Part shown: positions 10,824 to 23,412 of the stretch, piece after piece
Numbering within the stretch: the first letter of the stretch is position 1
How the letters are laid out: each line of letters begins with the position of its first letter
Origin: Deltaproteobacteria bacterium
Lineage (GTDB): Bacteria > Desulfobacterota > GWC2-55-46
Direction: 5' to 3'
DNA length: 45,738 nt
Assembly: GCA_016234405.1 (NCBI GenBank)
Contig: JACRCC010000087.1
Coordinates: forward strand, 1 to 45,738
The notes under the pieces: model-generated
The model's input: the letters and a program-made list of their open reading frames with translations, nothing else
Told to the model about the DNA's origin: nothing
Databases searched by the model: none
Position numbers and translations under genes: made by a program

Positions 10824-10932
10824 ATCTTATCCAGAGTGGCAGAGGGACTGGCCCTATGAAGCCACAGCAACCGGCGCGTAAACGCGACAGGTGCTAAATC
10901 CAGCAAGGCGGCGTTGCCTTGGAAGATAAGAA
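10824..10932 (+). promoter_or_regulatory. SAM-I (S-box) riboswitch aptamer
   Basis: The S-box consensus is plain to see: CTTATCCAGAGTGGCAGAGG GACTGGCCC, ATGAAGCC, CAGCAACC, a variable P3/P4 hairpin, GGTGCTAAATCCAGCAAG and GGAAGATAAG. P1 forms between CTTATC (10826-10831) and GATAAG (10925-10930). The bases AAGAAAGG (10928-10935) can instead pair with CCTCTTCTT (10943-10951, one bulge) as an antiterminator. Since they share AAG with P1, SAM binding should release CCTCTTCTT for the terminator and switch the threonine synthase-like gene off when SAM is plentiful. Confidence 0.95.
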
Positions 10933-10940
10933 AGGTATTT

Positions 10941-10977
10941 AACCTCTTCTTAGCTTTAAGACAAGAAGGGGTTTTTT
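10941..10977 (+). terminator. Riboswitch-controlled intrinsic terminator
   Basis: AACCTCTTCTT (10941-10951) pairs with AAGAAGGGGTT (10963-10973) and a run of T follows (10972-10977). It is the off-state element of the SAM-I riboswitch. Confidence 0.88.
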
Positions 10978-11017: not shown

Positions 11018-12271
11018 ATGGGTTACATGCTGGGGTTGAAGTGCAGGGAGTGCGGAAAAGATTATCCGGGCGAGGCCATCCATGTGTGCGAGTTGTGTTT
11101 CGGCCCTTTAGAGGTCAGCTACGATTACGCAAAGATTAAAGGGGCCGTCTCAAGGGATATTATCGAGAAACGGCCTCCCAATATGTGGAGATACAGGGAA
11201 CTGCTGCCGATAGAGGGCGAGCCGACGGTAGGGATGCAGGTCGGTTATACGCCGCTTGTTCGGGCAAAAAACCTCGCCAAGGCCCTCGGCGTAAAAGAGC
11301 TTTACATAAAAAACGACGCGGTCAACTTCCCCACGCTTTCATTCAAGGACAGGGTCGTCTCGGTTGCGATATCACGCGCAAAGGAGATGGGCTTTAACAT
11401 CATATCGTGCGCCTCCACCGGCAATCTCGCCAATTCCGTGGCGGCCAACGCCGCGGCCTGCGGCATGGAGAGCTACGTCTTCATACCGTATGACCTTGAG
11501 AATACCAAGATTCTCGGCACGCTCATCTACGGCGCCACGGTCGTCGGGATAAAAGGCACTTATGACGAGGTCAACAGGCTCTGCTCCGAGATAGCCGGCA
11601 AATACGGCTGGGCATTCGTCAATATCAACATAAGACCGTATTACGCGGAAGGGTCGAAAACCTACGGCTACGAAATAGCCGAGCAGCTCGGCTGGAGGCT
11701 CCCCAAGCACATAGTCGTGCCAATGGCCGGAGGGTCTTTGATAACCAAGATTTGGAAGGCGTTCAAGGAGTTTCACAATTTAGGGTTGGTAAAAAACCTC
11801 GACACAAAGGTCTACGGCGCGCAGGCAACGGGCTGCGCCCCGATAGTCAACGCCGTCAAGGAAGGCACGGAACTTATAAGGCCCGTGAGGCCCGCTACCA
11901 TAGCCAAGTCGCTCGCCATCGGCAACCCGGCTGACGGTTATTATTCCGTGAAGACCATAACCGGCAGCGGAGGATGGGCTGAGAGCGCGACCGATGAGGA
12001 GATAATTGACGCCATGAAGCTTCTCGCCGAGACCGAGGGCATATTCGCGGAGACCGCCGGAGGGGTTACGCTCGGAGCGGCCAAGAAACTTATCGAGCAA
12101 GGGAGGATCCCCAAGGACGAAGCAATAGTTTTGTGCGTTACCGGAAACGGCCTAAAGACGCAGGAGGCCCTCTACGGCAAGCTGGGTGAGTTTGCGATAA
12201 TCAACGCGAAGTTATCCGAGTTCGACGACCTTGTTAAGGTAAACGGCAGGGCCTACGCGATGAAGGGATAG
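11018..12271 (+). CDS. thrC: Threonine synthase or threonine synthase-like PLP enzyme
   Basis: 417 residues from ATG 11018, which has AAGGGGGAAG at good spacing; an in-frame TTG at 10979 lies in the riboswitch terminator and is rejected. The N-terminus has a zinc-ribbon (LKCRECGKDY, HVCELCFG) as in longer threonine synthases. The fold-type II PLP core has the Schiff-base lysine in SFKDR (Lys110), STGNLANS, and a late CVTGNGLKT. The known reaction turns O-phosphohomoserine to threonine. Control by a SAM riboswitch is unusual for threonine formation, and the gene leads into a sulfur operon, so use of O-phosphohomoserine for homocysteine synthesis is a possible alternative (inference). The stop TAG lies at the edge of a repeat. 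Confidence 0.88.
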   Translation: MGYMLGLKCRECGKDYPGEAIHVCELCFGPLEVSYDYAKIKGAVSRDIIEKRPPNMWRYRELLPIEGEPTVGMQVGYTPLVRAKNLAKALGVKELYIKNDAVNFPTLSFKDRVVSVAISRAKEMGFNIISCASTGNLANSVAANAAACGMESYVFIPYDLENTKILGTLIYGATVVGIKGTYDEVNRLCSEIAGKYGWAFVNINIRPYYAEGSKTYGYEIAEQLGWRLPKHIVVPMAGGSLITKIWKAFKEFHNLGLVKNLDTKVYGAQATGCAPIVNAVKEGTELIRPVRPATIAKSLAIGNPADGYYSVKTITGSGGWAESATDEEIIDAMKLLAETEGIFAETAGGVTLGAAKKLIEQGRIPKDEAIVLCVTGNGLKTQEALYGKLGEFAIINAKLSEFDDLVKVNGRAYAMKG

Positions 12272-12508: not shown

Positions 12509-12606
12509 TCACCGATAACCGATAACCGTTAACCGATAACTTTTTTGTCTTTGCCGATAACCGATAACGGCTTTGCGCCGCTGTCCTTGCAGCGGCGCAT
12601 TTTGCG
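12509..12606 (+). terminator. CCGATAACC tandem motifs followed by a GC-rich hairpin
   Basis: CCGATAACC repeats five times in slightly varied form between 12511 and 12568. Then GCGCCGCTG (12575-12583) pairs with CAGCGGCGC (12590-12598), followed by ATTTTGCGTTT. This may end the riboswitch-thrC transcript, though it is 300 bases past the stop and its T-run is short. Confidence 0.45.
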
Positions 12607-12723: not shown

Positions 12724-13716
12724 ATGACGGACCATTTTATCGAAGATAAGACCACCAAGGTCGCCGTAAAACTCGAGGGCGTTGCGGAGAAGGTAGACTT
12801 TAACGACCTCAAGACCGGCGGCTTCATAAAGCAGAGGCAAAAAGACCTTTTTACCGTGAGGATGCGTTGCCCGGGCGGAAGGATGGACACCAAAAGGCTC
12901 GTGGAGATAGCCAAACTCGCGGAGAAGTACAGCAAAAAGGGCGTCGTGCACTTCAGCTTCAGGCAGTCCCTCGAGATACTCTACGTGGACTACAAGGACT
13001 TCAACGCCCTCGTCGGCGAGCTTGAAAAAATCGGCCAGAAGGTCGCCTCCTGCGGCCCGAGGGTGAGGGTGCCCACGGCCTGCGGCGGGTGCGAGTACAA
13101 CCCCAACGGCCTCACGGACACGCAGAAGATGGCCGAGATGGTTGACAAGAAATTTTTCGGCATGCCCACGCCGCACAAGTTCAAAACGTCCTTTTCAGGA
13201 TGCCCGATAGACTGTGCGCGCACAAAGGAGATGGATTTTGGTTTTCAGGGCATAGTCGAGCCGCTCTGGGAAGAGACGAACTGCACGGGTTGCACCATCT
13301 GCTCCGAGGCCTGCAAGGAAGACGCCATCGAAGCGGACGCGGACACGGGTAAACCCATCTTCGACTCGAAAAAGTGCATCTATTGCGGAGACTGCATCCG
13401 CGCATGCCCCACCGAGGCGTGGAGGGCAAAGCGTTACGGACACATCGTGAGGATAGGCGGCAAGCACGGCAGGCATCCGATGGAGTCCGTTGAGGTATGC
13501 AGGTTTCTGCCGGATGAAAAGGTGCCGGAGGCAATAAAAAAGACGGTGGAGTGGTATAACGCCAACGGCAAACGCGGGGAGAGGATAGGCAACGCCTTGA
13601 AGCGCGTTGGGCTTGAAAAATATTTAGAGTTCATGGGTCCGGTCTTCGCGGACGTGGCGCCTGCCGCGACGGCGCGCGCCTACGTTCCGAATTTTAGCGT
13701 GAAACAGGGCGGATAA
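12724..13716 (+). CDS. Siroheme/4Fe-4S sulfite reductase-like protein with two extra ferredoxin clusters
   Basis: 330 residues. The N-terminal half fits the nitrite/sulfite reductase ferredoxin-like half-domain (RCPGGRMDTKRLVEIAKLA, FSFRQSLEILYVDYKD). Siroheme-linked cluster cysteines appear as Cys120-x2-Cys123 and Cys160-x3-Cys164 (SGCPIDC); the usual spacing of the first pair is x4-5, so this pair is shifted. Two ferredoxin motifs follow, at Cys187 (CTGCTICSEAC) and Cys218 (CIYCGDCIRACP). The size and layout match small anaerobic or assimilatory sulfite reductases (AsrC/aSir type) that reduce sulfite to sulfide in the cytoplasm. The adjacent sulfur genes agree. A nitrite reductase role is less likely. 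Confidence 0.8.
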   Translation: MTDHFIEDKTTKVAVKLEGVAEKVDFNDLKTGGFIKQRQKDLFTVRMRCPGGRMDTKRLVEIAKLAEKYSKKGVVHFSFRQSLEILYVDYKDFNALVGELEKIGQKVASCGPRVRVPTACGGCEYNPNGLTDTQKMAEMVDKKFFGMPTPHKFKTSFSGCPIDCARTKEMDFGFQGIVEPLWEETNCTGCTICSEACKEDAIEADADTGKPIFDSKKCIYCGDCIRACPTEAWRAKRYGHIVRIGGKHGRHPMESVEVCRFLPDEKVPEAIKKTVEWYNANGKRGERIGNALKRVGLEKYLEFMGPVFADVAPAATARAYVPNFSVKQGG

Positions 13717-13794: not shown

Positions 13795-14034
13795 GTGGGC
13801 GACGTAAAGGTTGATGCGCAGCTTGATTTGCGGGGCGTGGTCTGCCCCATAAACTTCGTAAAGACCAAGCTCAAACTCGAATCAATGGAGGCCGGAGAGG
13901 TCCTTGAGCTTACGCTCGATTCCGGTGAGCCGATACAGAACGTCCCTAAGAGCATAAAGGAAGAGGGGCACAAGATACTTGAGGTAAAAAAGGAAGACGG
14001 CTTTTTCAGGCTGAAGGTGCAGAAGGGGGAGTAA
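13795..14034 (+). CDS. tusA: TusA/SirA-family sulfur carrier
   Basis: 79 residues from GTG 13795, with AAGCGAGG (13781-13788) at proper spacing. An earlier in-frame TTG at 13729 would add residues coded by a repeat and is rejected. The TusA signature DLRGVVCPINFVKTKLKLE carries the single active cysteine; the rest (LELTLDSGEPIQNVPKSI, FFRLKV) fits the two-layer fold. TusA proteins pass persulfide sulfur between enzymes in the cytoplasm. Here it lies between the sulfite reductase-like gene and the ubiquitin-like sulfur carrier, so it may move sulfur onto the latter or to the activating enzyme. Confidence 0.88.
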   Translation: MGDVKVDAQLDLRGVVCPINFVKTKLKLESMEAGEVLELTLDSGEPIQNVPKSIKEEGHKILEVKKEDGFFRLKVQKGE

Positions 14035-14088: not shown

Positions 14089-14367
14089 ATGCCGGTAAAG
14101 GTAAGGATACCCACGCCGCTCAGGAAGATAACGAACGGTTCGGACGAGGTCGCGGCAGAGGGGCGCAACGTGGCCGAACTATTAAGCGACCTCGAGGCCA
14201 AGTTCCCCGGCCTCAAGGAAAGGATATGTGAGCCTGACGGCAAGCTCCGTAGGTTCGTGAACCTCTATCTCAACGACGAGGACATCAGGTTCAAGAAAAA
14301 TATGGAGACCGAGTTGAAGGACAATGACGAGGTCTCGATAATACCGGCCATCGCCGGAGGGTTTTAG
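14089..14367 (+). CDS. ThiS/MoaD/CysO-like sulfur carrier with a Gly-Gly-Phe tail
   Basis: A 92-residue beta-grasp protein with the MoaD/CysO length and pattern: VRIPTPLRKITNG at the start, NVAELLSDLEAKFPGLKERI, and DDEVSIIPAIAGGF-type end (NDNDEVSIIPAIAGGF in outline). Carriers of this kind are adenylated by a MoeB-like enzyme at a C-terminal Gly-Gly and turned into a thiocarboxylate. Here a phenylalanine follows the Gly-Gly, so one residue must be removed first, as known for QbsE and HcyS. The JAMM protease encoded at 16320 is the obvious candidate. The context (cysM, JAMM, moeB) matches the mycobacterial CysO system more than thiamin or molybdopterin synthesis. GGAGG at 14071-14075 gives the ribosome site. 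Confidence 0.87.
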   Translation: MPVKVRIPTPLRKITNGSDEVAAEGRNVAELLSDLEAKFPGLKERICEPDGKLRRFVNLYLNDEDIRFKKNMETELKDNDEVSIIPAIAGGF

Positions 14368-14375
14368 TTGGTTAT

Positions 14376-14401
14376 CGTTCCCACGCTCCAGCGTGGGAAC
14401 G
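14376..14401. repeat. CGTTCCCACGCT palindrome
   Basis: A perfect inverted repeat, CGTTCCCACGCT (14376-14387) and AGCGTGGGAACG (14390-14401), with CC between. Confidence 0.9.
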
Positions 14402-14474: not shown

Positions 14475-14711
14475 TTGAAAAAGCGCTATTATCTCACATA
14501 CCCCAAGGAACTCGTAAAAGAGCCGCTCTTGTATAACGTCGGCCAGAAGTTCAAGGTGGTAACGAACATAAGACAGGCCACGGTCTCCGACACAATCGGA
14601 CTCGTGGCCCTCGAGCTTGAAGGAACGGAGGCTGAGGTTGAAAAGGCCGTGAAGTTTTTGACGGACAAGGGCGTAAAGGTCGAGCCAATCGAGTTGGACG
14701 TCATAGAGTAG
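14475..14711 (+). CDS. Stand-alone NIL-domain protein
   Basis: A 78-residue protein that is entirely a NIL domain (YYLTYPKELVKEPLLYNVGQ, NIRQATVSDTIGLVALELEG, LTDKGVKVEPIELDV). NIL domains occur at the C-terminus of methionine ABC ATPases, where they bind methionine, and in NIL/ferredoxin proteins linked to homocysteine synthesis in anaerobes. No ferredoxin motif is fused here. The start is TTG 14475, supported by AAGGAGAG at 14462-14469. Position between the sulfur carrier and cysteine synthase suggests a sensing or accessory role in sulfur amino acid synthesis; the exact job is not known. Confidence 0.82.
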   Translation: MKKRYYLTYPKELVKEPLLYNVGQKFKVVTNIRQATVSDTIGLVALELEGTEAEVEKAVKFLTDKGVKVEPIELDVIE

Positions 14712-14972: not shown

Positions 14973-14998
14973 CGTTCCCACGCTGGAGCGTGGGAACG
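14973..14998. repeat. CGTTCCCACGCT palindrome, second copy
   Basis: CGTTCCCACGCT and AGCGTGGGAACG with GG between, the same unit as at 14376-14401. Confidence 0.9.
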
Positions 14999-15020
14999 AT
15001 AAGGCGTCATTTAAAATATC

Positions 15021-15135: not shown

Positions 15136-16092
15136 ATGACAATGCACAAGTTAGCCGAGGCTGCGGTGAGGCATTCGGCATATTCCAATGTCAGGCAAAC
15201 CGTTCTCGATCTTGTCGGGAACACCCCGCTCGTCAAGATAAACAGGATAACCAAAGACCTTCCGAAAGATGTCGAGGTCTACGCTAAACTTGAGTGCTTC
15301 AACCCCGGCGGTTCTGTAAAAGACAGGGCCGCGCTCCGAATGATTGAGGATGCGGAGAAGAGCGGCAGGCTCACCGTTGACAAGATAATATTGGACTCCA
15401 CCTCAGGCAACACGGGCATAGCGTACGCGTGGGTGGGAGCGGTAAAGGGCTACAAGGTGCGCCTTGTGGTGCCGGGCAACGCGAGCGAGGAGAGGAAGAA
15501 GATATTAAACGCATTCGGCGCAGAGGTGATATATTCAAACCCGCTCGAAGGGTCCGATGGCGCGATACGTCTCGCATGGAAGATATACGTGGAAAACCCG
15601 GACACGTATTGCAAGTTGGATCAGTACAACAACCCCTCGAACCCGCAGGCCCACTACGACACTACCGCTCCTGAGATTATCGAGCAGACCGAAGGCAGGG
15701 TTACGCACTTCGTGGCGTCCATAGGCACGGGCGGCACCATCATGGGCACCGGCAGGAGGCTCAAGGAATTCAACAAAGACATCCAAATTGCGGCAATTGA
15801 GCCGGACAGCGCTTTTCACGGGCTTGAAGGATTGAAGCACATGGCATCCTCGATAGTGCCGGGCATCTTCCACGAGAGCGAACTTGATTTAAAAGTGCCT
15901 GCGCCGACTGAGGAATCCTACGCAATGGTTAAGCGTCTTGCGCGGGAAGAGGGGATCCTCACCGGACAGTCTTCAGGGGCAGCGATGTGGGGCGCGTTTG
16001 AAATCGCAAAGAAGTTAAAAAAAGGCGTACTGGTGGTAATATTCCCGGACGGCGGAGACAAGTATCTGTCCACGCGGCTTTGGGAGTTGTAG
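15136..16092 (+). CDS. cysM: Cysteine synthase, CysM-like
   Basis: A 318-residue fold-type II PLP enzyme. The Schiff-base lysine is Lys62 in GGSVKDRAA, with the STSGNTG loop after it and a glycine-rich GTGGTIMGTGR phosphate site. Overall it resembles mycobacterial CysM, which joins O-phosphoserine with the thiocarboxylate of CysO, more than CysK, judging by LDQYNNPSNPQAHYDTT, LPGIF-like VPGIFHESELDL and the end GGDKYLSTRLWEL. The mycobacterial arginine that selects phosphoserine cannot be assigned with certainty without alignment. A sulfur carrier, JAMM protease and activating enzyme nearby support the thiocarboxylate route. The stop TAG belongs to a GTAGCTCAG repeat. Confidence 0.87.
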   Translation: MTMHKLAEAAVRHSAYSNVRQTVLDLVGNTPLVKINRITKDLPKDVEVYAKLECFNPGGSVKDRAALRMIEDAEKSGRLTVDKIILDSTSGNTGIAYAWVGAVKGYKVRLVVPGNASEERKKILNAFGAEVIYSNPLEGSDGAIRLAWKIYVENPDTYCKLDQYNNPSNPQAHYDTTAPEIIEQTEGRVTHFVASIGTGGTIMGTGRRLKEFNKDIQIAAIEPDSAFHGLEGLKHMASSIVPGIFHESELDLKVPAPTEESYAMVKRLAREEGILTGQSSGAAMWGAFEIAKKLKKGVLVVIFPDGGDKYLSTRLWEL

Positions 16093-16300
16093 CTCAGGGC
16101 CGTAGCTCAGGCCTTCAGCTCAGGGCCGTAGCTCAGGCCTTCAGGCCTGATAAAGTCAGACCTAAAGGTCTGAGCTACAAAGCCTGATAAAGTCAGACCG
16201 TAGCTCAGGGCCGTAGCTCAGGGCCGTAGCTCAGGCCTTCAGGCCTGATAAAGTCAGACCTAAAGGTCTGAGCTACAAAGGTAGATAAGGTTTGACCTAC
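16089..16300. repeat. Cluster of GTAGCTCAG repeat units
   Basis: At least six GTAGCTCAG starts are packed into 190 bases, with two nearly identical full units (16122-16181 and 16221-16276: ...GGCCTTCAGGCCTGATAAAG TCAGACCTAAAGGTCTGAGC TAC) and short fragments between. A last GTAG...CTAC dyad reaches 16300. The first TAG is the cysM stop. The cluster separates cysM from the JAMM gene. Confidence 0.9.
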
Positions 16301-16319: not shown

Positions 16320-16769
16320 ATGTTATTCAACATAACCGGCAGACCGCCGCTCTACATCGAGAAGGCGGCTTACGACGAGATGCTCCTCCACGCGAAAGAG
16401 GCCTACCCTCACGAGTGCTGCGGGGTCCTCGTGGGCAGCGGACTCAAGGACAAAAGGGTGTTTCAGTCCCACAGAGTCAAGAACACGAATACCGACCGCG
16501 CCAAGGACAGATACAACATAGACCCGGTCGAGATACACATCATTGACAGGTCTGCGCGGGCAGAGGGGCTCGACGTGCTCGGTTTTTACCATTCTCACCC
16601 CGACCACCCGGATAGACCCTCGGAGTATGACCGCGAATGGGGGCAGGTGGGTTACTCTTACGTCATCGTATCCGTCATGAACGGTAAGGATGTTTCTGTC
16701 AAGAGCTGGGTTATCGCCGACGAAAAAGACCCGTATAAGGAAGAAAAGATAAAGGTTACTGAACCGTGA
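16320..16769 (+). CDS. JAMM/MPN+ metalloprotease, Mec+-like
   Basis: A 149-residue protein of the prokaryotic JAB/MPN family. All zinc and catalytic residues are present: Glu32 (PHECCG), His91 and His93 in HSHPDHPDRPSEYD, Ser101 and Asp104. Mec+ of Mycobacterium releases cysteine from the CysO-cysteine adduct; QbsD and HcyD of other bacteria trim residues after the Gly-Gly of ubiquitin-like sulfur carriers. Because the carrier encoded at 14089 ends in Gly-Gly-Phe, this enzyme may do both jobs (inference). GATAAGGAGC before the ATG is the ribosome site. The gene is followed after 22 bases by the moeB-like gene. Confidence 0.88.
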   Translation: MLFNITGRPPLYIEKAAYDEMLLHAKEAYPHECCGVLVGSGLKDKRVFQSHRVKNTNTDRAKDRYNIDPVEIHIIDRSARAEGLDVLGFYHSHPDHPDRPSEYDREWGQVGYSYVIVSVMNGKDVSVKSWVIADEKDPYKEEKIKVTEP

Positions 16770-16791: not shown

Positions 16792-17616
16792 ATGGACTTC
16801 ACCGATGAGCAGATAGAGCGGTATTCAAGGCACATAATCCTGCCCGAAATCGGCGGCAGGGGTCAGGCCAAACTTTTAAAGAGCAAGGTCTTCGTGCTCG
16901 GCGCCGGAGGGCTTGGCTCTCCGGCGCTCCTCTACCTTGCGGCCGCCGGGGTGGGCGCCATCGGCGTGGCCGACGGGGATTGCGTGGATATCAGCAACCT
17001 CCAGCGCCAGATAATCCACAATAACGAAAGTATCGGCAAGCCAAAGGTCTTTTCCGCAAAGGAGTCAATAGAAAAAATAAATCCCGACGTAAAGGTAATG
17101 GCCTTGCACGGACGCCTGACGGTAGAGAATATCCGCGAGGTCATACGCGATTACGACGTGGCGCTTGACGGCAGCGATAATTTTCCGACTCGTTTTTTGA
17201 TGAACGACGCGGCCTTCTTCGAGCAAAAGACCCTCGTATCCGGGAGCATGTTCAGGTTCGACGGGCAGGTCTCGGTCTTCAAACCCCACAAGGGGTATCC
17301 GTGCTACAGGTGCCTGTATCCTGAGCCGCCTCCAAATGGGCTTGTGCCGAGTTGTCAGGAGGCAGGGGTTCTCGGCGCGCTTGCGGGAGTCATTGGGGTT
17401 TTGCAGGCAGTGGAGGCAATAAAAGAAATACTCGGCATCGGCGACACCCTTGCGGGAAATCTTTTGGTCTTCGACGCGCTCAAGATGTCCTTCAGAAAAG
17501 TTAAGGTGGGGAAAGACCCTGAGTGCGCGCTTTGCGGCCCGTCCGCCTCGATAAAGGAACTGAAGGCGTATGAAGAAGAGGCCTGCGAGCTCCGCGCATC
17601 CAAGTGCGAGATGTAG
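16792..17616 (+). CDS. moeB: MoeB/ThiF-like E1 activating enzyme
   Basis: A 274-residue adenylating enzyme of the E1-like family. The nucleotide loop GAGGLGSP starts at residue 37, DGDCVDISNLQRQ follows, and zinc is bound by Cys171/Cys174 (CYRC) and Cys245/Cys248 (CALC). Cys188 in PSCQEAGVLG corresponds to the conserved cysteine of this family. There is no C-terminal rhodanese domain as in MoeZ, so sulfur must come from elsewhere, for instance TusA or sulfide. The likely substrate is the carrier encoded at 14089: adenylate its trimmed Gly-Gly and allow thiocarboxylate formation. The neighbourhood has no other thiamin or molybdopterin genes. Confidence 0.87.
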   Translation: MDFTDEQIERYSRHIILPEIGGRGQAKLLKSKVFVLGAGGLGSPALLYLAAAGVGAIGVADGDCVDISNLQRQIIHNNESIGKPKVFSAKESIEKINPDVKVMALHGRLTVENIREVIRDYDVALDGSDNFPTRFLMNDAAFFEQKTLVSGSMFRFDGQVSVFKPHKGYPCYRCLYPEPPPNGLVPSCQEAGVLGALAGVIGVLQAVEAIKEILGIGDTLAGNLLVFDALKMSFRKVKVGKDPECALCGPSASIKELKAYEEEACELRASKCEM

Positions 17617-17699: not shown

Positions 17700-18902
17700 A
17701 TGAAAAAAAAGAGCTACCTCGACAACCCGGCCACGCTCAAGATTGACCTGATGCTTAGGGGTCTTCGCATCGCCGACCCCTTAGTGAAGGCGTGGGCCTG
17801 CGGCGCAACGGGCATTGACATTATGCTGCCGGGACGCACCATCGCTAATATTCCGTGCTCCGAGGGTTTTACGGCGGCATCCCCTTACGCCATTAGGAAA
17901 AGGGGGGAGAGATATGCGATAACCGACGGCACAGGGGAGGTCGAGGTGAGCCTCGTTCCTCGGCCTAAGTTTTATGACGGAAAGACCTCCACCGGAGTGT
18001 CCTTCTCAAAGATAGCGCAGGTGCACGGCAGCCTCTTAGTCATAACGCCGTCTCCGGCGTGCGAGTTTTTTAACGCTAAGGTCGAGTGCAGGTACTGTGC
18101 CGGAAACTTCGACAGGACAGGCAAGGAAGACGCCGTATATACGGTTGAAGACGTGGTCGAGACCGTGGGCGCGGCCATTGCCGAGTTAGGCAGCCCAGTC
18201 GTGTATCTCTCCATCGGGTTTTCTCGGGACCCATCCGGAGGCATGGAGTTTTTAAGGCCATACCTTCAGGCGATAAAAAGGCATTACAACTGCCTTACGG
18301 CGGTAGAAGCCCTGCCGCCCAAGGACAATCATTGGATTGACGAGACCTACGCGATGGGCGCGGATTCGGCGCTCTACAACGTGGAGATTTATGACGAAGA
18401 ACTTTTCAAGATAATCTGCCCCGGGAGAGCGACCCTCATCGGGCGGAAGAGATATTTGGACGCCCTTGAATACGCGGCAAAGATATTTCCGAGCGGCACG
18501 GTCTCGTCGCATCTCATAGTCGGCCTTGAGCCGCCCGGCTCGACGTGCCAAGGGATTGATTTTCTGACGGGGATAGGCGTGGTGCCGGTGCTGCCCATAT
18601 ACAGGCCCACGACTAACAAGGCCTTGCGGATTGACCCGCTCACGACCGAGATAATAATCCCGGTTTACAAGCACCTCTACAAGGCCGTCAAAACGAAAGG
18701 GATAAACCTTAACTGGGTTAGGGACTTGAGCATGGTGACGACGCCCGTTGAGCTAAAGGGTCTTGTCGAGGGCGCGGGCAAAAACGTCTCGTTGGTGGAT
18801 ACCTTCTACGGGACGCGGCTCGGCAAAAAGGCCGCATGGGGGATGTCCACGCTTCGCAGAAAGTTAAGGGTCAAGGGGACGCACGGACAATCGGGACATT
18901 GA
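17700..18902 (+). CDS. Radical SAM-like protein with a CX8CX2C cysteine motif
   Basis: A 400-residue cytoplasmic protein. The cysteines Cys121, Cys130 and Cys133 in ACEFFNAKVECRYCAG are placed like a radical SAM cluster but spaced CX8CX2C, not the usual CX3CX2C. Downstream features of a TIM-barrel radical SAM enzyme are visible: VVYLSIGFSRDPSGGMEFLRP (a GGE-like strand and turn), NVEIYDEELFKIICPGRATL and a late HLIVGLEPPGST. The substrate is unknown. It lies between the thiocarboxylate genes and the anion transporter, all on one strand, so a role in sulfur metabolism or cofactor formation is possible. The basic C-terminal tail runs into GGGACATT-type intergenic sequence. Confidence 0.7.
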   Translation: MKKKSYLDNPATLKIDLMLRGLRIADPLVKAWACGATGIDIMLPGRTIANIPCSEGFTAASPYAIRKRGERYAITDGTGEVEVSLVPRPKFYDGKTSTGVSFSKIAQVHGSLLVITPSPACEFFNAKVECRYCAGNFDRTGKEDAVYTVEDVVETVGAAIAELGSPVVYLSIGFSRDPSGGMEFLRPYLQAIKRHYNCLTAVEALPPKDNHWIDETYAMGADSALYNVEIYDEELFKIICPGRATLIGRKRYLDALEYAAKIFPSGTVSSHLIVGLEPPGSTCQGIDFLTGIGVVPVLPIYRPTTNKALRIDPLTTEIIIPVYKHLYKAVKTKGINLNWVRDLSMVTTPVELKGLVEGAGKNVSLVDTFYGTRLGKKAAWGMSTLRRKLRVKGTHGQSGH

Positions 18903-20958: not shown

Positions 20959-21657
20959 ATGGGAATGACGACAAAGGTTTGGACTCCTGAAGAATTGAAA
21001 GAAGTCGCCGTTGCGCTCGAGGGCAAGCCCCCCGAAGACGCGCTTAGGTGGTCAGTTGACAACTTCAAGAGAGACGAGTTCGCGCTCGCGTGCAGCTTCG
21101 CCGAGTGCGTTACCGTTGACATGCTCTTGAAGGTTAAGCCCGATGCGAGGGTTTTTTACCTTGACACGGGACTTCTTTTCAAGGAAACATATCAGGTCGT
21201 AAAAGAGGTGGAGCGTAAATACGGCATAATAGTTGAGCGATACGCCCCTGATATTGGGCTTGAGGAGATGGCCTCCAAACACGGCCCGGAACTCTGGAAG
21301 ACCAATCCCGACCTATGCTGCGACATAAGGAAGGTAAGGCCTCTAAAAAAAGTTCTCTCAACGCTCAAGCTCTGGATAACGGGGCTGCGTAGAGATGAAG
21401 CGCCGTCGCGGGGCACGGCGCCTATAGTCGGATGGGATGAGAAGTTCAATCTCATTAAGGTAAACCCCATAGCCGCATGGTCGCGCAAGCAGGTCTGGGA
21501 CTATGTCACGAAATACGGCGTTCCGTACAATAAGCTCCTCGACAAGGGTTACACGTCCATCGGCTGCGAGCCGTGCACGGGTTTGGCATCCTCGGATGAG
21601 CGCGGAGGCAGGTGGCCCGGACGCGCAAAGATCGAGTGCGGACTGCATGGAGGGTAA
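20959..21657 (+). CDS. cysH: Assimilatory APS reductase (CysH family)
   Basis: 232 residues. The PP-loop-like region is CSFAECVTVDMLL. The two cysteine pairs that bind the 4Fe-4S cluster of APS reductases are present: Cys120-Cys121 in LCCDIRKV and Cys203-x2-Cys206 in GCEPCT, plus the C-terminal redox cysteine in ECGLHGG. PAPS reductases of the E. coli type lack these pairs, so the substrate is most likely APS, reduced to sulfite with thioredoxin-type help. The start may be ATG 20959 or 20965. A 21-base near-copy of its first codons lies 66 bases upstream, across a repeat. Confidence 0.9.
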   Translation: MGMTTKVWTPEELKEVAVALEGKPPEDALRWSVDNFKRDEFALACSFAECVTVDMLLKVKPDARVFYLDTGLLFKETYQVVKEVERKYGIIVERYAPDIGLEEMASKHGPELWKTNPDLCCDIRKVRPLKKVLSTLKLWITGLRRDEAPSRGTAPIVGWDEKFNLIKVNPIAAWSRKQVWDYVTKYGVPYNKLLDKGYTSIGCEPCTGLASSDERGGRWPGRAKIECGLHGG

Positions 21658-21699: not shown

Positions 21700-23412
21700 T
21701 TGACGACGATAATTGCGCCGCACGGCGGGGTTTTGAAGGATCTCATCGCGTCGGAGAAGAAGGCCGAGGCGTTGAAGACGGAGGCCATGGGATATGTCTC
21801 ATGGGATCTGACCGAGAGGCAGTTGTGGGACATAGAGATGCTTCTTTGCGGCGCGTTTTCGCCGCTTGAAGGTTTTCTCGGCAAGGACGATTACGCATCC
21901 GTCTTGAAGGACATGAGGCTTTCGGACGGCACGGTCTGGCCCGTGCCCATAACCCTCGACGTCAAGGAGGAGTTCGCGGAAAAATTAAAAACAGGGACTA
22001 AGATTGCGCTGCGCGACCACGAGGGGGTGCTGATCGCGGTTATGACGGTCGGCGACATCTGGAAGCCCGACAAGAAGGCCGAGGCTGAGCTTGTCTTAGG
22101 CTCCACGGATGACGCTCATCCGGGCGTGGATTATCTGCTCAACAGATCCAACCCCGTTTACATAGGCGGAAAACTGCAGGGCGTGGAGATGCCGAGACAT
22201 TATGATTTCAAATATCTCCGCAATACGCCAAAGGATTTAAGGGACAGGTTCAAAAAACTCGGTTGGACGCGCGTCGTTGCCTTTCAGACGCGAAACCCCA
22301 TGCACCGCGCCCATCAGGAGCTGACGTTCAGGGCCGCGCAGAAATCCGCCGCCAATCTCCTCATCCACCCCGTCGTCGGCATGACCAAGCCCGGAGACAT
22401 AGACCACTACTCGCGGATACGCTGCTACGAGTATCTGATAAAGCAGTATCCTGAGCAGACGACCATGCTGTCGCTCCTGCCGCTTGCGATGCGCATGGGC
22501 GGGCCGCGGGAATGCGTCTGGCACGCCATAATAAGAAAAAACTACGGCTGCACGCACTTTATCGTGGGCAGAAATCACGCTGACCCCGGCAACAACAAAA
22601 AGGGCGAGCCGTTTTACGGGCCTTTCGACGCTCAGGAACTCCTCGGAAAACTCCAATCGGAAATCGGCATCGAGATGGTCGCGTTTCCTGAGATGGTCTT
22701 CGTGCAGGAAAAGGCCGAGTATGTGCCGTCGTCCGAGGTCAATAAGGGCGACACGGTCTTGAATATCTCCGGCACGGAATTCAGGCGGCGCTTGGCCGAG
22801 GGTCTCGACATCCCGGAGTGGTTCTCATACAAAGAGGTGGTGAATGAATTGAGGCGCACGTATCCGCCCAAGCACAAACAGGGCTTTACCGTGTTTTTTA
22901 CCGGGCTGTCGGGTTCTGGGAAATCCACGGTAGCCAACGCCCTGATGGTTAAACTCATGGAGACTGGCGGCAGGAGGATAACCATCCTTGACGGGGACAT
23001 GGTGCGCAAAAATCTCTCAAGCGAGCTTGGTTTTTCGAGGGAGCACAGGGACTTGAATATCCAGCGCATCGGATTCGTGGCCTCCGAGATAACCAAACAC
23101 GGCGGCATTGCGATATGCTGCCCCATAGCCCCGTACAGCAAGACACGCAATGGCGTGAGGGATGTGGTCTCGCAGTCCGGCGGGTTCGTGGAGGTGCACG
23201 TCTCGACCTCCGTTGAAACCTGCGAGGGGCGCGACAGAAAGGGGCTTTACGCCAAGGCGCGGGCCGGGATTATAAAGGAGTTCACGGGGATAAGCGATCC
23301 GTACGAGGCGCCGGAAAACCCGGAGGTCGTGATAGACACGAAAGACTGCTCTCCGGACGAGGCCTCGCAGAGGATAATCTTGAAACTTGAGCAGATGGGT
23401 TATATTAAGTAG
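21700..23412 (+). CDS. sat-cysC: Bifunctional ATP sulfurylase / APS kinase
   Basis: 570 residues. Residues 1 to about 390 form a Sat-type ATP sulfurylase with QTRNPMHRAHQEL and VGRNHADPG; residues about 395-570 form an APS kinase with P-loop GLSGSGKST at 402-410, DGDMVRKNLSSELGFSREHR and IAPYSKTRN. Both active sites look complete. It makes APS from sulfate and can phosphorylate APS to PAPS. Since the CysH encoded upstream looks APS-specific, PAPS may serve sulfation or regulation. The start is TTG 21700 with AGGAGGA at 21686. A strong terminator after the stop closes the sulfur region. Confidence 0.92.
   Translation: MTTIIAPHGGVLKDLIASEKKAEALKTEAMGYVSWDLTERQLWDIEMLLCGAFSPLEGFLGKDDYASVLKDMRLSDGTVWPVPITLDVKEEFAEKLKTGTKIALRDHEGVLIAVMTVGDIWKPDKKAEAELVLGSTDDAHPGVDYLLNRSNPVYIGGKLQGVEMPRHYDFKYLRNTPKDLRDRFKKLGWTRVVAFQTRNPMHRAHQELTFRAAQKSAANLLIHPVVGMTKPGDIDHYSRIRCYEYLIKQYPEQTTMLSLLPLAMRMGGPRECVWHAIIRKNYGCTHFIVGRNHADPGNNKKGEPFYGPFDAQELLGKLQSEIGIEMVAFPEMVFVQEKAEYVPSSEVNKGDTVLNISGTEFRRRLAEGLDIPEWFSYKEVVNELRRTYPPKHKQGFTVFFTGLSGSGKSTVANALMVKLMETGGRRITILDGDMVRKNLSSELGFSREHRDLNIQRIGFVASEITKHGGIAICCPIAPYSKTRNGVRDVVSQSGGFVEVHVSTSVETCEGRDRKGLYAKARAGIIKEFTGISDPYEAPENPEVVIDTKDCSPDEASQRIILKLEQMGYIK

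Follow-up and report, generated by a model that had tools for sequence, protein, structure and literature searches.

A probable JAMM-trimmed sulfur carrier precursor in a SAM riboswitch-linked sulfur assimilation cluster of a deltaproteobacterium

Background

Sulfur carriers with removable residues after Gly-Gly are known from the QbsE/QbsD and HcyS/HcyD systems, and NIL domains are present in MetN and in another homocysteine pathway. In the MetM/MetO system, the thiocarboxylate of MetO is reported to be the sulfur donor.

MetM of Streptomyces (Hasebe 2024, as cited in PMC12172450) is a homocysteine synthase, a threonine synthase homologue that lies behind a SAM riboswitch (in S. albulus) and is accompanied by a putative sulfur carrier gene, metO. 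Cleavage after Gly-Gly by enzymes of the JAMM/Rpn11 type is known for ubiquitin-like (Ubl) precursors and for MoaD-MoaE fusions (PMC6043591, PMC8832034), and the release of fused ThiS/MoaD by a JAB protease was proposed as early as 2006 (PMC1779556).

The window, by which we mean the whole stretch of 45,738 nucleotides analysed (contig JACRCC010000087.1 of a Deltaproteobacteria bacterium assembly), contains a carrier gene within a sulfur assimilation cluster (Table 1). According to the original prediction, a phenylalanine after Gly-Gly masks this carrier until a linked JAMM protease removes it, which would provide a control point for cysteine synthesis.

Results

Table 1. Features of the cluster in the window
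Feature	Position	Strand	Evidence or remark
SAM riboswitch aptamer (RF00162), at the start of the cluster	10824..10932	+	Rfam cmscan E 9.2e-22, 95 bits
Hairpin and U run, likely terminator (riboswitch expression platform)	10941..10973	+	11-bp stem, then UUUUUU
MetM-like PLP enzyme, annotated threonine synthase	11018..12271	+	PF00291, TIGR00260
Sulfite reductase (AsrC/Dsr-like)	12724..13716	+	NIR_SIR and Fer4; TIGR02912 below cut-off
TusA/SirA sulfur transfer protein	13795..14034	+	PF01206 E 1e-22
Sulfur carrier precursor, 92 aa, ending AIAGG-F	14089..14367	+	ORF, profile and PDB matches
Gly-Gly codons GGA GGG of the carrier	14356..14361	+	In relatives GGA-GGN is the Shine-Dalgarno of the overlapping NIL gene
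Phe tail codon TTT of the carrier	14362..14364	+	Predicted site of JAMM removal
Palindromic repeat between carrier and NIL	14372..14401	+	Repeated in inverted orientation at 14973-15002
NIL-domain protein, 78 aa, TTG start	14475..14711	+	PF09383, E 8e-15
CysM-type cysteine synthase	15136..16092	+	TIGR01138, 381 bits, just under cut-off
JAMM (Mec+/desampylase-like) metalloprotease	16320..16769	+	PF14464 (Prok-JAB) E 3e-24; sole PF14464 gene in genome
E1-like adenylyltransferase, MoeB/UbaA type, no rhodanese domain	16792..17616	+	PF00899; one copy in genome
Radical SAM protein, next to E1 gene	17700..18902	+	NF045502 above cut-off; neighbourhood conserved in class
APS/PAPS reductase CysH	20959..21657	+	PF01507 E 4e-49
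ATP sulfurylase/APS kinase fusion	21700..23412	+	ORF translation; same order in homologues; identity judged from sequence

The carrier and its C-terminus

The translated carrier ends in ...SIIPAIAGGF, with the stop codon TAG directly after the Phe codon TTT, which confirms the predicted residue beyond Gly-Gly and sets the surplus at one. The protein has the ThiS/MoaD fold (PF02597, E 6e-18, profile search) and scores above the NCBIfam SAMP1 cut-off. Its best PDB match is M. tuberculosis CysO (3dwg_C, E 9e-24), in an alignment that stops at Gly-Gly; CysO and a ThiS/MoaD-family protein (4n6e_B) are its nearest solved relatives, and both terminate at Gly-Gly. The ThiS (L154) and MoaD (L155) of the same genome end in TGGG and SGG, and neither has an added non-glycine residue.

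An assembly error is ruled out as the source of the tail, since a carrier of 88% identity (L076) also ends in GGF and tails are found throughout the lineage. The carrier is not the molybdopterin MoaD either, because the genome has its true MoaD at another locus, next to a MoaE-like ORF; at the window locus no linkage to moaE or other Moco genes was found. The carrier is likely to be a precursor that is trimmed by JAMM.

The tails of 27 non-identical carriers from the same lineage were compared. Residues follow Gly-Gly in 26 of them, mostly one or two (two residues in 17 carriers, one in six, and three, four and six in one each). One carrier has none. L106 ends in bare Gly-Gly although its gene order is the same and the JAMM gene lies next door, the one case of the kind that the original prediction named as counting against it. 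An aromatic residue occurs in eight tails and is absent from the other 19 carriers, the sequences including F, AF, KF, AL, VS, RR, IH, TA, MC, VR, M, R, L, ID, RFGL, and SIGGKR. The alignment of homologues thus rules out an aromatic tail as a conserved signal, the residues varying freely, and a mask that is specifically aromatic is not likely.

Among about 100 orthologues, 21 end in bare Gly-Gly, 52 have one to three further residues, 13 have 4–24, and 18 have at least 40; the majority of these longest run-ons are in-frame fusions to a NIL domain or to E1. Such carrier-NIL and carrier-E1 fusions occur in several families, most with a JAMM gene. Counts among relatives include related genomes, all of them assemblies and many from metagenomes, and absence of a gene refers to profile searches.

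The JAMM protease

The linked protease was predicted to be catalytically complete, and it is: the motifs E-x-CG and HSH-x7-S-x2-D are both present, and all catalytic residues are kept in 42 of 43 relatives. The protein matches the desampylase profile below its cut-off. In the model of a natural carrier-NIL fusion (L054), the Ala-Gly-Gly junction is the sole internal stretch below pLDDT 50 and lies between two folded domains.

With JAMM presence defined as a full-length PF14464 match with E below 1e-15, the protease is found in 52 of the 58 genomes whose carrier is tailed or fused versus 7 of the 19 with bare Gly-Gly, in agreement with trimming. The association is 1e-5 by Fisher test over genomes, p 0.02 over lineages, and is not significant without the Verrucomicrobia, ten of which have bare Gly-Gly and no strong JAMM match and account for much of the contrast. 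On the tree there are too few independent changes, and the association is confounded by kinship. It was therefore set aside as proof of trimming, being only suggestive once kinship is allowed for. In the six tailed or fused genomes that make up the remainder, JAMM was not found by profile search, some of these assemblies being incomplete; conversely, bare Gly-Gly carriers accompanied by JAMM exist (L106, L138, L056, L071, and L086).

With Gly-Gly covered, an intact JAMM in the operon, and co-occurrence of tail and JAMM, the masked carrier of the original prediction is supported in part, although not as an aromatic-specific mask. The window JAMM probably removes the Phe, and it is reasonable to give this single enzyme a putative dual role in unmasking the carrier and freeing the amino acid.

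Overlap of the carrier with the NIL gene

At the 17 loci with two-residue tails, the TGA stop codon of the carrier is overlapped by the TTG or GTG start of a NIL gene, which begins one base before that stop (15 loci by BLAST; L041 and L100 by eye). The two tail codons there form the spacer between a GGA-GGN Shine-Dalgarno sequence, made up of the Gly-Gly codons, and the NIL start, at a distance of about six bases. The codon usage fits this arrangement: the first Gly codon is GGA at 16 of the 17 overlapping loci, versus 4 of 18 where the genes are fused and 15 of 58 where the neighbour is distant, and GGA makes up only 9 of 119 other Gly codons of the same genes. Carrier tails also overlap the starts of E1 (L052, L058), CysM (L139), and JAMM (L077) genes. 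Downstream of the carrier, NIL proteins are found in many phyla, either overlapping or fused.

The tail in this lineage is probably, for the most part, a by-product of a NIL gene that starts within the end of the carrier gene, and it may be tolerated because JAMM would trim anything after Gly-Gly. Overlap is not the whole account, however, since tails without an overlap are short as well. One or two residues make up 24 of 40 such tails, where shuffled downstream sequence would give about three tails of this length, in genomes that are related. Selection for a short tail beyond the overlap is possible.

In the window itself GGA-GGG and one TTT codon are left, and NIL lies 113 bases off. The Phe is best read as a leftover of gene overlap. 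A 30-bp palindrome flanks the NIL gene in two inverted copies, a pattern that would fit two insertions of a small mobile or REP-like element.

Other parts of the cluster

The ORF list starts the MetM-like gene at TTG 10979, but ATG 11018 has a Shine-Dalgarno sequence and falls after the riboswitch hairpin, and is the likely start. The energy of that hairpin is not significantly better than that of shuffled sequences (z -1.4). A further terminator-like hairpin (12574-12599) lies between the MetM-like gene and the carrier, so that the two may be transcribed apart. Between the CysM and JAMM genes there is a 98-bp tandem repeat rich in inverted repeats (16100-16295).

In six genomes of the same phylum (family f14), the E1 gene has an in-frame UGA at a conserved cysteine, VPS-UGA-[N/D]EAGVLG versus VPSCQEAGVLG in the window (L118 (316, -), L121 (3967, -), L122 (5111, -), L124 (8353, +), L125 (7476, +), and L126 (3310, +)). 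A conserved hairpin, CCTGGG-loop-CCCGGG, is located about 17 nt 3' of the UGA, as expected of a SECIS. These E1 proteins are candidate selenocysteine proteins; MoeB is a reported selenoprotein family (PMC1088965).

Homocysteine and cysteine

Among 23 loci in relatives, 18 have a SAM riboswitch ahead of the ThrC gene that is linked to the carrier. The genome has five PALP genes (IlvA, ThrC, MetM-like, CysM, and TrpB), including a second threonine synthase that adjoins hom, and the carrier-linked and hom-linked ThrC proteins form separate clades with a support of 100. Since the hom-linked ThrC exists, the one in the window is unlikely to be the housekeeping threonine synthase, but in three genomes (G016, G128, and G415) the carrier-linked copy is the only one seen.

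Profile searches of 16 genomes of the class, this one included, found the Cys/Met PLP enzyme family (PF01053) and HcyBio (PF01837) in none, and a MetH-type gene is present in 15. CysM is apparently the sole cysteine synthase of the genome. It is nearer to E. coli CysM than to the CysO-dependent CysM of M. tuberculosis, a protein missing from its best 60 PDB matches. Searches for CysE (serine acetyltransferase) found none in this genome or in most of the class, which fits a CysO-type route that starts from O-phosphoserine.

The SAM riboswitch and the MetM-like enzyme point to homocysteine as a likely product, so that cysteine, the only product in the original prediction, is unlikely to be the only one. 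The carrier is probably MetO-like and is best read as a MetO/CysO-like protein that would serve homocysteine and probably cysteine synthesis; that one carrier serves both is what we infer from the gene content.

Discussion

Proposed mechanism

The precursor form, the gene order, the overlap, the codon bias, the riboswitch, and the separate ThrC clade are read directly from the sequence. From these, trimming, the use of E1, and both enzyme partners are inferred as follows. The carrier would be made as ...AIAGG-F, and the JAMM protease (16320) would cut after Gly-Gly and free the Phe. The E1 (16792), the single one in the genome, would then adenylate the Gly carboxylate. Its conversion to the carrier thiocarboxylate would use sulfur that probably comes from sulfite reductase by way of TusA. 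This sulfur would be passed to the MetM-like enzyme, which would turn O-phosphohomoserine into homocysteine, and probably also to CysM, which would use O-phosphoserine to form carrier-cysteine; JAMM would then free the amino acid, as Mec+ does with CysO. As to the origin of the tail, in packing of carrier and NIL genes the Gly-Gly codons would serve as the ribosome-binding site and the two codons before the stop/start overlap would become the tail, while in the window the palindromic repeat would have moved NIL away and left GGA-GGG and one Phe codon. We regard this explanation as a whole, with a precursor, JAMM trimming, thiocarboxylation by E1, MetM-like and CysM partners, and a tail derived from NIL packing, as fairly probable.

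Weighing of the explanations

The evidence for the origin of the tail also bears on the predicted control point, in which the Phe is a selected mask and a regulated JAMM cut decides the flow of sulfur to cysteine. Tail and JAMM do co-occur, the non-overlapping tails are short, and with one E1 for ThiS, MoaD, and the carrier, masking could ration the E1. However, the tail residue is unconserved, L106 is tailless beside an intact JAMM gene, and trimming may be constitutive with the JAMM gene in the same cluster. Moreover, the overlap accounts for most of the two-residue tails, so a dedicated control point is not needed in most of the lineage, and we consider it improbable. Drift would explain the free variation of the tail residues, some long tails of 7–44 residues, the repeated fusions, and the occasional bare Gly-Gly, if JAMM served only to free the amino acid from the carrier and extensions were invisible; but non-overlapping tails are far shorter than a random run-on, even if the related genomes are not independent, and such a neutral origin appears rather unlikely.

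The SAMP1 match of the carrier and the desampylase match of JAMM suggest yet another role, that of a ubiquitin-like modifier that would be attached to proteins in its mature Gly-Gly form and taken off again by JAMM, as with SAMP1/HvJAMM1 in Haloferax. The operon, however, is one of sulfur assimilation: it includes TusA and CysM, and a SAM riboswitch precedes its MetM-like gene. SAMP1 is itself also a sulfur carrier and the two roles are compatible. A modifier in place of a sulfur carrier is very unlikely here.

Implications

Several elements may be joined in one proposal, which we hold tentatively: one JAMM-trimmed carrier under a SAM riboswitch would feed both the MetM-like enzyme (with O-phosphohomoserine) and CysM in a class with no other known homocysteine synthase, its Gly-Gly codons would double as the NIL ribosome-binding site, and JAMM processing would let the genes overlap and fuse repeatedly. 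If this is true, the presence of a Gly-Gly protease leaves the C-terminus of a carrier open to overlap or fusion with the neighbouring gene, which would be a reason for Ubl sulfur carriers to become precursors. The cluster would offer a candidate homocysteine route for uncultured lineages in which no known homocysteine synthase was found. It would also bring the NIL domain, until now known from the transport of methionine and a different homocysteine route, into methionine synthesis by a sulfur carrier. The original prediction as a whole is supported in part: the residue that covers Gly-Gly and the protease are confirmed, and a precursor is likely. The aromatic nature of the residue is incidental, one relative with the same gene order has no tail, and the cluster is likely to serve methionine, not just cysteine.

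Comparison with known systems

The features of the QbsE/HcyS kind are present in the window, namely Gly-Gly with an extra residue and an intact JAMM in the operon. Shared with QbsE and HcyS are the ThiS/MoaD fold, the short C-terminal extension, and the linked JAMM and E1; HcyS is also found in a sulfate-assimilation cluster with TusA. In contrast to those systems, the window has no O-acetylhomoserine sulfhydrylase and has MetM-like, CysM, and NIL genes instead, and the tail is variable and linked to the NIL overlap.

The CysO/CysM/Mec+ system of M. tuberculosis resembles the window in the closest solved carrier, CysO, and in the presence of CysM and JAMM in the cluster (PMC3227635); the lack of a detected CysE in this genome fits O-phosphoserine. 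CysO, however, ends in a free Gly-Gly and the window carrier in GGF, MoeZR has a rhodanese domain whereas the TusA of the window is separate, and the window CysM is more E. coli-like.

In MetM/MetO of Streptomyces, a threonine synthase-like gene likewise follows a SAM riboswitch, and the cluster again contains a carrier gene. The carrier gene is adjacent in many relatives, whereas the Sir and TusA genes intervene in the window, which differs also in the addition of JAMM, CysM, NIL, TusA, and sulfite reductase and in the tail of its carrier.

Classes 4c and 4e of Iyer et al. 2006 combine ThiS/MoaD, JAB, E1 without rhodanese, SirA, sulfite reductase, PAPS reductase, and ATP sulfurylase (PMC1779556), and the window has the content of operon class 4e, with ThiS/MoaD, JAB, E1 without rhodanese, SirA, and sulfate/sulfite reduction. 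In that paper (PMC1779556) no reference was found to NIL, to threonine synthase, or to gene overlap as the cause of a tail. The pairs CsUb precursor/CsRpn11 and CsSAMP/CsJAMM, and DRJAMM with MoaD-MoaE, are similar in that their JAMM enzymes have been shown to cleave behind the Gly-Gly of Ubl precursors or fusions (PMC6043591, PMC8832034), but they are archaeal ubiquitin or Moco systems and not systems of homocysteine or cysteine synthesis. JAMM-trimmed masked carriers are already known.
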